A stretch of DNA of 64,000 bases from Vallitaleaceae bacterium (lineage in GTDB: Bacteria; Bacillota; Clostridia; Lachnospirales; Vallitaleaceae). Of the stretch, positions 15,956 through 36,671 are shown in pieces (position 1 is the first letter of the stretch; every line of letters starts with the position of its first letter). The stretch spans positions 1-64,000 of the forward strand of contig JANQFZ010000028.1 in the NCBI GenBank assembly GCA_028277605.1, in the 5' to 3' direction. The translations under genes were made by a program, and so were the position numbers. The notes beneath the pieces were generated by a model. That model did not search any database. It was not told where the DNA came from and saw only the letters and a program-made list of their open reading frames with translations.

Positions 15956-15964
15956 ATCTATCCA

Positions 15965-16080
15965 TATCTTCTACCATCCAGACTATACTGTCGGTCTTGG
16001 AATTTCACCAAGTCAACCTTAATAAAAGGCTCACGGACTATAACCGCCGATTGGGAATTGCACCCTACCCCGAAGAATTT
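15965..16080 (-). promoter_or_regulatory. FMN riboswitch (RFN element)
   Basis: The minus strand contains the conserved RFN landmarks in order: TTCTTCGGGGTAGGGTG, AATTCCCAATCGGCGGT, AGTCCGTGAGC, GGTGAAATTCCAAGACCGAC and AGTATAGTCTGGATG, closing with GTAGAAGA. It sits between a consensus promoter and ribU. FMN binding should reduce ribU expression, probably through the terminator at 15921-15955. Confidence 0.97.
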
Positions 16081-16097
16081 CCTATTCTATTAATTCT

Positions 16098-33583: not shown

Positions 33584-34117
33584 TTACATAAACTCAGGTT
33601 CAATTAAACCAAACTCACCTTTTTTTCTTTTGTAAACCACATTGACCTCTTCTGTATCACCATTCATAAAAACAAAGAAATCATGCCCTAATAAATCCAT
33701 TTCCATACACGCTTCTATTGGATCCATCGGCTTTATCGCAAATCTTTTACTTCTAACAATGTTGATCTTTTTATCTTCCTCGTTAGTTATGTCTGAAATA
33801 AATTCTTTTTTAAAGGCACCACTATGACGATGCTTGGTTATTAGCTTTTTTTTATGTCTAAGTAATTGTCTTTCTAATACGTCAATAACCTCATCAATAG
33901 CGTTATACATATTTTCGTTTTCTTCTTCTGCTCTTAGCACACTCCCTCTTATAGGTATGGTCACTTCAAGAATATGCCTCTTTCTTTGAACACTTAAAGT
34001 AACCTGTGCTTCATTTTCTGGAGAGAAATACTTCTCTAGCTTACTCAGCTTGTTAATAATCTTGTCTCTCAATGCATTGGTTATCTCAATATTTTTCCCA
34101 CTAATAGTATAGCGCAT
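33584..34117 (-). CDS. hpf: Long-form ribosome hibernation promoting factor
   Basis: Long HPF binds the 30S decoding centre and dimerises 70S ribosomes to 100S in stationary phase. The 177-residue protein has the N-terminal S30AE domain (about 1-100, MRYTISGKNIEITNALRDKI) and the C-terminal dimerisation domain (about 120-177, PIEACMEMDLLGHDFFVFMN). GGGAG precedes the ATG. Directly upstream are two copies of a 12-base repeat (34159 and 34213) that contain TATAAT-like boxes. Confidence 0.97.
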   Translation of the reverse strand: MRYTISGKNIEITNALRDKIINKLSKLEKYFSPENEAQVTLSVQRKRHILEVTIPIRGSVLRAEEENENMYNAIDEVIDVLERQLLRHKKKLITKHRHSGAFKKEFISDITNEEDKKINIVRSKRFAIKPMDPIEACMEMDLLGHDFFVFMNGDTEEVNVVYKRKKGEFGLIEPEFM

Positions 34118-34158
34118 AAAACCAACTCCCTTTATAGTTTATGACATCATTATCTCTT

Positions 34159-34224
34159 ATTATAGTATTTAATGTAGATTGTTATTATTTAGCTCAAGGG
34201 TTTTAATATACTATTATAGTATTT
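34159..34224. repeat. Duplicated ATTATAGTATTT element upstream of hpf
   Basis: ATTATAGTATTT occurs at 34159-34170 and 34213-34224, 54 bases apart. On the minus strand each reads AAATACTATAAT and so carries a TATAAT -10 box, but neither has a good -35 hexamer at the right distance. They may be two hpf promoters read with an activator or another sigma factor, or binding sites for a regulator. Confidence 0.45.
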
Positions 34225-34508
34225 ATATTCGATAGATTTTATCAAAATCCTTTATTTTTTTGAATTCTAGTATAAATAGGATATATGCTTCATCTTTAAA
34301 AAGTATTAGTATGAGTTTATTACATTGTCAAAGTTTTTGAGGCATACTATATCCTATAAGAAATTGAAATATAAAGCTAATACTAGCTCCTCATTGTCTT
34401 AAATAGCTAGCATTTTAACTGTTTTTTTATGCCTATAAAATATACTCAATTATTGTGATATAAATTAGGGCTATTTTACTGGTTTAGTTAAAATGTAAAC
34501 ATAATTCT

Positions 34509-34578
34509 TGTGGATAATGTGGATATATCTGTGCACAACCTAGTTTGTTAAGCTTTCAACAACTTTTTCTGTGGATAA
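34509..34578. other. Cluster of DnaA-box-like sites
   Basis: Against the DnaA box TTATNCACA (here read as TGTGNATAA) there are two perfect copies, 34509-34517 and 34570-34578, and two copies with one mismatch, TGTGGATAT at 34518-34526 and TGTGCACAA at 34530-34538. All four face the same way, and the first two are head-to-tail with no gap. They lie in a 790-base A+T-rich gap without dnaA or dnaN nearby. The rest of the gap (34225-34508 and 34579-34687) shows nothing else I can name. Confidence 0.6.
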
Positions 34579-34687
34579 CTCTATTTTTATATTAATATTA
34601 TGTAAAGTAGATGTCTTCTTTAACTCTCTGTATAAGGTATATAACTGTGACAATGTATAATATTTGAAAGAAATTGTTAGATACCTC

Positions 34688-34715
34688 TTGATTATTTCAA
34701 TTTTTATGATATAAT
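34688..34715 (+). promoter_or_regulatory. Plus-strand promoter in the hpf/hydA gap
   Basis: TTGATT (34688-34693), 16-base spacer, TATAAT (34710-34715). No plus-strand protein gene follows for 6 kb. It is followed by a strong terminator 80-120 bases on. Confidence 0.55.
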
Positions 34716-34721
34716 AAAAAT

Positions 34722-34838
34722 ATCTTAAATTATGACATATTTCGTACATAAAAATGGGTTAAGTGCTTTAAAAAGTAATGGTTTATTGAGTACAACGAAA
34801 AAGACGCTATTTAATTAGCGTCTTTTTCGTTGTTTTTG
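34722..34838 (+). ncRNA. Candidate small RNA of about 115 nt
   Basis: Promoter at 34688-34715 and terminator at 34792-34838 bracket a transcript of about 115 nt. It matches no RNA family I recognise (not 6S, SRP, tmRNA or RNase P). It contains a 28-codon open frame (ATG 34732 to TAG 34818) that has no Shine-Dalgarno site and runs into the terminator stem, so a non-coding role seems more likely than a peptide. Existence of the transcript is inferred from signals only. Confidence 0.4.
34792..34838 (+). terminator. 18-bp perfect terminator in the hpf/hydA gap
   Basis: ACAACGAAAAAGACGCTA (34792-34809) pairs perfectly with TAGCGTCTTTTTCGTTGT (34816-34833) around a six-base loop and is followed on the plus strand by TTTTGTT. 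The T-rich arm would also help stop minus-strand transcription coming from hydA. Confidence 0.8.
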
Positions 34839-34864
34839 TTAATTTGTGGCATGTTTTGATAGTA

Positions 34865-34897
34865 TTAATAACAAAGCCCCGAAAATATCGGGACTTT
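34865..34897 (-). terminator. Terminator after hydA
   Basis: AAAGCCCCGA (34873-34882) pairs with TCGGGACTTT (34888-34897), the single irregular pair being G-U only in minus-strand RNA. TTTGTTATT follows. It begins ten bases after the hydA stop codon. Confidence 0.8.
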
Positions 34898-34907
34898 GAT
34901 TAGAACT

Positions 34908-36671
34908 TTATACTTTATCTTTGACTGAATAATGCGTATGAAGCAGTTTGTGTGATTTTTCACTGAGTGGTTTTCCTAAATAAGTTTCGTACAATTCTAT
35001 AATGGCTGGATTTTCATGAGATTTTCTTATCTTCATCTCTCTATCTACTTGATAGATTGCTTCTTGACGCTTTTTAAGAACACTTGAATCTCCATGGTGA
35101 TAAGGTTGTCCACCACCGCCAATACAGCCACCTGGACATGCCATAATTTCAATTGCATGAAGGTTTCTTGGATTACCGTCTTTAATCTCCTCTAATAACT
35201 GTCTTGCATTACCAAGACCATGAGCAATACCAATATTTAGGACTAAGCCATCCATATCTACTGAAGCTACTCTAACACCATCAAATCCTCTTAACTGTTT
35301 AAAATCAACTCTTTCTAATTCTTTCCCTGTCTTAATTTCATAAGCAGTACGAACGGCTGCTTCAATAACACCACCCGTTGTACCGAAAATGACACCTGCA
35401 CCAGTTGAAATACCTAGTGGATTATCATATTCTTGATCTTCTAACTCATTGAGATCTAAGTTGAATTGTTTGATTAAATGTGCTAATTCTCTAGTGGAAA
35501 TCGTAATATCGACATCAGGATTACCATCGACACTAAATTCTTCCCTTGAAGCCTCGTATTTCTTAGCTAAACAAGGCATAACTGAAACGACAACCATTTT
35601 TTTTCTTGGAACGTTTAATTTCTCAGCAAAGTAAGATTTAGCAATAGAACCAAACATTTGTTGTGGTGACTTCGCTGTTGAAGGAACATCAATAAGCTCT
35701 GGAAATTGACTTTCAATAAAGTTAACCCATGCAGGACAGCACGATGTCAAAATAGGTAATTTTACATCTTTGTCCCCAGCAAGAAATTTTTCTAGTCTTT
35801 CTAAAAGCTCATGTCCTTCTTCCATGATAGTTAAATCTGCTGTAAAATCTGTATCGAAAACATAGTCAAATCCAATGCTTTTTAATCCTGATACCAACTT
35901 GCCAGTTACAATAGTACCGGGCTCAGCACCAAATTCTTCACCAATAGCTACTCTTACTGCTGGCGCTGTTTGTGCTACCACTATTTTATCTGGATCTGCA
36001 AGGGCATCTAACACCTTCCATGTGTGATCATTTTCTGTTAAAGCACCTACTGGACATACAGCAACGCATTGTCCACAGTGTGTACAGACTGTATCCACTA
36101 AAGGTGATTCAAAGGCAGGTGAAACAACAGCTTCAAAGCCTCTATTAATAGCAGATAAAGCACCAACGGTCTGAACTTCATTACACATAGTTTCACATCG
36201 TCGACACATAATACATTTATCCATATCTCTAATGATAGACTCAGAATAGTCTTTCTTATAAGTAGACTGTGATTTACCAGTGATTCTTACTTCTCTTAAT
36301 CCAAACTTCTCAGATAAATCTTGCAGCTCGCATTTACCAGATTTAGCACATGTTAAACACTCTTTAGGATGATCAGAGAGTAATAATTCAATGATTGTCT
36401 TTCTAGCTTCCATAACTCTGACCGTATTAGTCCTTACGACCATTCCGTCTACAACAGGCGTTGCACATGATGGAGCTAAATTTCTTCTGCCTTCCACTTC
36501 TACAACACACACACGGCAGGAAGCTGTTTTGTTCACCATTTTGGTATCATGTAAGTCTAAATGACAAAGGGTTGGGATACTAATACCTACCTTTCTAGCA
36601 GCTTGTAAAATGGTACTGCCTTGAGGCACAAGGACTTCTTTTCCATCGATCGTCACTTTTACATCTGACAT
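34908..36671 (-). CDS. hydA: [FeFe] hydrogenase, catalytic subunit of HydABC type
   Basis: This subunit makes or consumes H2 at the H-cluster. In the 587 residues: a [2Fe-2S] domain (C36, C52, C55, C69), a His/Cys-ligated cluster region (HPKECLTCAKSGKCELQ), two [4Fe-4S] sites (CIMCRRCETMC and CTHCGQCVAVCP), then the H-cluster motifs TSCCPAW (L1), MPCLAKKYEA (L2) and MACPGGCIGGGGQPY (L3). The company of HydB- and HydC-like genes points to the NADH- and ferredoxin-dependent electron-bifurcating (or confurcating) complex. AAGGAGG precedes the ATG. Last gene of the operon. Maturases hydEFG are not in the window. Confidence 0.96.
   Translation of the reverse strand: MSDVKVTIDGKEVLVPQGSTILQAARKVGISIPTLCHLDLHDTKMVNKTASCRVCVVEVEGRRNLAPSCATPVVDGMVVRTNTVRVMEARKTIIELLLSDHPKECLTCAKSGKCELQDLSEKFGLREVRITGKSQSTYKKDYSESIIRDMDKCIMCRRCETMCNEVQTVGALSAINRGFEAVVSPAFESPLVDTVCTHCGQCVAVCPVGALTENDHTWKVLDALADPDKIVVAQTAPAVRVAIGEEFGAEPGTIVTGKLVSGLKSIGFDYVFDTDFTADLTIMEEGHELLERLEKFLAGDKDVKLPILTSCCPAWVNFIESQFPELIDVPSTAKSPQQMFGSIAKSYFAEKLNVPRKKMVVVSVMPCLAKKYEASREEFSVDGNPDVDITISTRELAHLIKQFNLDLNELEDQEYDNPLGISTGAGVIFGTTGGVIEAAVRTAYEIKTGKELERVDFKQLRGFDGVRVASVDMDGLVLNIGIAHGLGNARQLLEEIKDGNPRNLHAIEIMACPGGCIGGGGQPYHHGDSSVLKKRQEAIYQVDREMKIRKSHENPAIIELYETYLGKPLSEKSHKLLHTHYSVKDKV

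Follow-up and report, generated by a model that had tools for sequence, protein, structure and literature searches.

The DnaA-box array between hpf and hydA

In the window (the whole stretch of 64,000 nucleotides analysed here), a gap of 790 bases (34118-34907) separates hpf from its upstream neighbour hydA, and a conserved element with four DnaA boxes lies within it. The following features matter here.

33584..34117, - strand: hpf, long ribosome hibernation promoting factor (Ribosomal_S30AE and C-terminal domain; Pfam)
34225..34253, - strand: sigma-H-like hpf promoter, AAAGGATTT-N11-ATCGAATAT; the pattern starts 136 bases upstream of hpf
34494..34607, - strand: whole conserved DNA element, 114 bases, the span of the match to model R1
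34494..34505, - strand: conserved flank ATTATGTTTACA (alignments); by eye, it approximates the other flank in inverted orientation
34509..34517, - strand: DnaA box 4, TTATCCACA, perfect, abutting box 3; start 9 bases after box 3
34518..34526, - strand: DnaA box 3, ATATCCACA, one mismatch; start 12 bases after box 2
34530..34538, - strand: DnaA box 2, TTGTGCACA, one mismatch; start 40 bases after box 1
34570..34578, - strand: DnaA box 1, TTATCCACA, perfect (box scan and alignment)
34598..34607, - strand: conserved flank CTTTACATAA (GTTNACATAA in relatives; alignments)
34792..34833, strand unassigned (listed on +): second, long terminator-like hairpin (hairpin search)
34872..34898, - strand: terminator-like hairpin after hydA (hairpin search)
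34908..36671, - strand: hydA, [FeFe] hydrogenase catalytic subunit, outside the element (Pfam)

An earlier note on this DNA had described two perfect boxes and two with a single mismatch, all in one direction within 70 bases. The box scan located all four as claimed, including the head-to-tail pair without a gap (34509-34517 abuts 34518-34526), and the open reading frames and Pfam agree on the A+T-rich gap between hpf and hydA. A fifth match with one mismatch (TTATACAGA, 34627-34635, - strand) lies just beyond the conserved element. The note's suggestion that DnaA controls the hydrogenase operon was dropped: the array is located 3' of hydA, with both terminator-like hairpins in between. Elsewhere in the window there is an FMN riboswitch (15962-16081).

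The array is unusual in its arrangement. Four same-strand boxes within 70 bases occurred in none of 4,000 first-order Markov sequences modelled on the same 790-base gap. Single boxes are not enriched in the window (91 matches with at most one mismatch, against 106 expected), and the whole genome holds 236 perfect copies of TTATNCACA against 208 of the pattern read backwards. The abutting pair NTRTNCACANTRTNCACA is found at three places in 3.34 Mb and its backwards control at none. These places fall in two loci, the array in the window and the gap between murC and dnaD, and the genome-wide scan thus bears out the cluster as an outlier. The model R1, described below, has one strong match in the genome (E 2.4e-18, 67.6 bits), with a runner-up at E 0.017.

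Two other box arrangements were seen in this genome. A second array (C79:41231-41425, i.e., L148:3231-3425), with two triple sets at 9- and 12-base spacing, sits between murC and an operon with dnaD/dnaB-like (PF07261) and dnaI-like genes. In six of seven complete relatives (G013, G014, G016, G021, G006, and G057; absent in G046), weak R1 matches are located some 2 kb before the dnaI-like gene. Near an ABC-F-like gene, two perfect boxes of the same direction start 11 bases apart (L061, C5:24114-24133).

Conservation and spacing across the Clostridia

The search for relatives used R1, a sequence-only model of 22 rows, whose training sequences have a spacing near 40 between boxes 1 and 2. At E<=0.01 it matches 317 of the 392 genomes of the order and gives no match in the other 75. 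At E<=1e-4 it matches 118 of 291 genomes of the class, 107 of them outside the order and 11 within. Weak matches, which were inspected in part in the class genomes, can reflect oriC or some further cluster of boxes (G336, G255, G614), and strong cut-offs are hence also quoted below. The gene hpf is present in 54 of the 59 genomes searched (that of the window included), and in 29 named contigs from Vallitalea, Petrocella, Lachnospiraceae, Clostridium, and others. Vallitalea- and Petrocella-like relatives carry the same array upstream of hpf, as do Lachnospiraceae metagenome-assembled genomes, with a 41/12/9 spacing. The comparison with relatives that the earlier note proposed therefore shows the array conserved, with little change of layout, in hundreds of genomes. 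One viral contig of IMG/VR also has the exact core of boxes 2, 3, and 4 (L190:4946-4975).

We read the register of the boxes in 109 loci, 69 from the order and 40 from the class. The order loci were the 30 best-scoring and 40 chosen by hand, some of them for a distant hpf, minus one without the element (L145). The class loci were taken from 38 genomes, mainly those with the best scores and complete sequences, and neither sample is random. A core filter (two abutting boxes and a third at 12) was passed by 99 of the 109 loci, the 12 and 9 spacings being partly built into R1 and into this filter. The boxes number four, and sometimes five in relatives. The spacing between boxes 1 and 2, available for 88 loci, falls into two classes: 44 loci at 40-42 and 40 at 30-33, with none at 34-39 and four elsewhere. 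Because R1 was built from spacings near 40, the loci at 30-33 lie outside what it was trained on. The two classes are one helical turn apart, which points to proteins touching each other on one face of the DNA.

Neighbouring genes, raiA RNA, and the hpf promoter

Is the element part of the control of hpf? Among the 69 order loci, hpf is directly downstream and in the same direction in 43; the element lies between hpf and secA, i.e., downstream of hpf, in two (G009, G014) and before secA in one. The remaining 23 have no adjacent hpf, although one of these has it 2.8 kb away. In the 40 class loci, hpf is directly downstream in the same direction in 16, lies 2.4-3.7 kb away in seven, and was not found in 17; in several of the seven an amino-acid ABC transporter operon seems, by eye, to intervene. 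The array is thus no constant companion of hpf in either set. The core is retained without an adjacent hpf in, e.g., G046, G022, G120, and G197, and in some lineages the element is 11-75 kb from hpf (G022, G057, G046). It also occurs between convergent genes, trxB and ATP synthase subunit D in G328 and NlpC/P60 and MecA in G305, and can therefore be the promoter of neither. The firm convergent cases are L111 and L138 (Pfam), with L098 and L102 similar by eye. Neighbour directions based on open reading frames conflict with the mapping of hpf in L089, L099, L103, and L188 and were not used. Taken together, these neighbourhoods suggest that the array is old in the class Clostridia and persisted when its neighbour genes left.

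The strongest alternative to a site acting on DnaA itself is an operator: DnaA on the array would control the sigma-H promoter of hpf, so that hibernation follows the level of DnaA or the state of replication. The promoter pattern, for which we take the consensus to be that of B. subtilis, was matched in 2 of 2,000 simulated sequences, and a sigma-H-like hpf promoter is common to many relatives. The distance from box 4 to the -35 element is 114-118 bp, about 11 helical turns, in 11 of the 16 loci that bear the motif (that of the window included among the 16), and L016 (106 bp) is one turn shorter. Together with hpf directly downstream in most of the order loci read, this constancy is what the operator would predict. 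Against it, the distance is 255 bp in the window, 224 in L007, 162 in L023, and 57 in L025; the motif is absent before hpf in 6 of 22 loci; and the element occurs without an adjacent hpf, downstream of hpf in the gap to secA, and, in G328 and G305 at least, between two convergent genes. Because the array persists without hpf, including between convergent genes, a pure hpf operator is unlikely, and we give the operator reading as a whole a minor though serious place. The idea of the earlier note that DnaA controls hpf survives in part: the constant distance speaks for it, and the longer distance in the window and the arrays kept without hpf speak against it. Some members of the family may use the array to control hpf, but such control cannot account for the element in full.

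The neighbourhood of raiA RNA (ModT, RF03072) raises another possibility. This RNA replaces the array upstream of hpf in five Clostridium relatives. Among the 56 class genomes with raiA RNA, the array follows it by 60-840 bp on the same strand in 24 (e.g., G649:C2:306661-307031 and G444:C32:67109-68002), often with hpf next; another has the array at 6.6 kb, five have matches elsewhere, and 26 have no match. A covariance-model search for RF03072 gave no match in the window's own genome or in those order genomes that the class sample lists. The array was probably set, ancestrally, between raiA RNA and hpf. According to the available portion of PMC11706538, raiA RNA in C. difficile governs sporulation and the exit from exponential growth. 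One could thus imagine a dual site, an autonomous DnaA-control locus anchored by raiA RNA and hpf that ties replication control to the switch between growth and dormancy. The many raiA genomes with no match or with matches elsewhere, and the missing raiA RNA in the order, count against this, and the adjacency of raiA RNA, array, and hpf can be plain synteny; we consider the dual site improbable. A broader formulation, to which we give some limited credence, would be a Clostridia-wide phased DnaA array, usually with one strong copy per chromosome and ancestrally placed between raiA RNA and hpf, that would restrain re-initiation and also connect the state of replication to this switch.

It is very improbable that the array serves a different protein, or acts as an RNA element, and only resembles DnaA boxes. 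The flanks GTTNACATAA and ATTATGT are conserved and are not DnaA boxes, as such a reading would have it. In the alignments, however, the box columns show about the same variation as TTATNCACA, and DnaA, whose domain IV contains the NRDHTT...H recognition stretch, is the sole protein of this genome with a DnaA DNA-binding domain (Bac_DnaA_C). The RNA element was rejected: RNAalifold found no conserved base pairs in 22 sequences, and Rfam gave nothing at gathering score at the array, with chance-level matches only.

Chromosomal position and a candidate DnaA-control site

That the array is a second or former replication origin can be practically discarded: several DnaA boxes do lie within an A+T-rich gap, but dnaA, preceded by a 10-box cluster of mixed orientation, is on another contig (C26), GC skew is negative throughout the window with no switch, and in complete relatives the element (E<=1e-7) is 0.07-1.24 Mb from dnaA. 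The array thus has neither the adjacent dnaA nor the skew switch of an oriC. The earlier note had thought a chromosome origin unlikely and had called for a skew check; both the location of dnaA and the skew agree with it.

The element nevertheless tends to lie in the origin-proximal part of the chromosome. We surveyed complete or nearly complete relatives, the genome of the window being a draft in 86 contigs. The best non-origin matches (E<=1e-4) are less than 25% of the genome from dnaA in 30 of 31 genomes, the exception being G538 (44%), and at E<=1e-9 in 14 of 14. They point in the leading-strand direction in 24 of 31 and 12 of 14, respectively. These genomes are mutually related and are not independent trials; genome sizes were partly rounded, and the sequences of G107 and G323 are divided among contigs. 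The survey omitted three matches within 30 kb of dnaA (G614, G336, G648), genomes with weaker matches (G255, G265, G279, G331), and one with neither match nor dnaA (G087). In complete relatives (G006, G013, G014, G016, G021, G046, G057) hpf itself is about 17-25% from dnaA, whether or not the element adjoins it. Because of this, the position is not independent proof of an early-copied site, and it could be no more than a legacy of the hpf region.

On balance, we favour the reading of the 114-base element, which is conserved in much of the class Clostridia, as a candidate DnaA-binding site outside oriC that would titrate or inactivate DnaA. From the direct results (the boxes and their spacing, conservation, and uniqueness, the position in complete relatives, and the persistence without hpf) we infer DnaA binding, cooperativity, and titration or inactivation. 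Four, sometimes five, boxes of the same direction in fixed helical register would let DnaA assemble cooperatively, and the element most likely acts on DnaA itself. Being origin-proximal, it would be copied early and would double soon after initiation; the doubled element could then bind or inactivate DnaA and so damp re-initiation, an effect reported for the DnaA-box clusters of B. subtilis and for E. coli datA. In the family to which the window belongs, the element might in addition influence the sigma-H promoter of hpf as a side effect. Several observations stand against a titration site: the constant 114-118 bp to the hpf promoter (11 of 16) and the location of hpf directly downstream in the majority of the order loci (43 of 69) and in 16 of 40 class loci, neither of which pure titration would need. 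Four boxes alone would also seem few for titration, and the outlying G538 and the 75 order genomes without a match count against this reading too. The datA- or DARS-like role proposed in the earlier note looks, from sequence data, like a fair guess, the array being unusual in its genome and conserved in relatives, so that two of the note's three grounds for refutation do not apply.

Comparison with known systems

By its layout, the array is a DnaA-box cluster, and its conservation in relatives suggests a so far unnamed replication-control site in this group. In the openly licensed literature we found nothing that joins DnaA boxes with the hibernation promoting factor or with Lachnospiraceae; a search for DnaA-box clusters and hpf returned unrelated HPF papers only, and DnaA boxes and raiA were joined only in an archaeal paper. 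The available text of PMC13220808 describes B. subtilis as lacking Hda, SeqA, IHF, datA, and DARS, and the control of the nucleotide state of its DnaA as unknown. For the question of how Gram-positives without these factors restrain DnaA, a DnaA array in the same register in hundreds of Clostridia offers a definite, deletable site. The array might, in addition, connect replication control directly to the locus of raiA RNA and ribosome hibernation.

In Clostridium the raiA RNA takes up the corresponding region before hpf, and in part of the class it immediately precedes the array; it is a structured RNA, whereas the array has no conserved structure. With DARS1 and DARS2 of E. coli the array shares its character as a non-coding DnaA-box locus, but those sites reactivate DnaA (DARS2 with Fis and IHF). 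The layout of the DARS core probably differs from that of the array as well. The relative positions of both non-coding loci are kept among E. coli strains, as stated in the accessible part of PMC4585315. The datA locus of E. coli, at 94.7 min, is likewise a non-coding DnaA-box locus outside oriC and exerts negative control of initiation (PMC5295017, in the part available). It resembles the array in the former respect; datA spans about 1 kb and needs IHF, on which its stimulation of DnaA-ATP hydrolysis depends, whereas the array is a compact tandem.

Like the DnaA-box clusters of B. subtilis, the array groups several DnaA boxes more densely than chance would, outside oriC, and it is likewise origin-proximal (in 30 of 31 relatives, its own genome being a draft). 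The title of Okumura et al. (2012) reportedly calls the B. subtilis clusters oriC-proximal. There are six such clusters outside oriC, and their deletion leads to early initiation, which has been read as sensitivity to free DnaA (PMC5295017 and PMC13220808, in the portions available). In number and arrangement it differs from them: each genome has a single principal array, whose rigid layout is conserved across the class.
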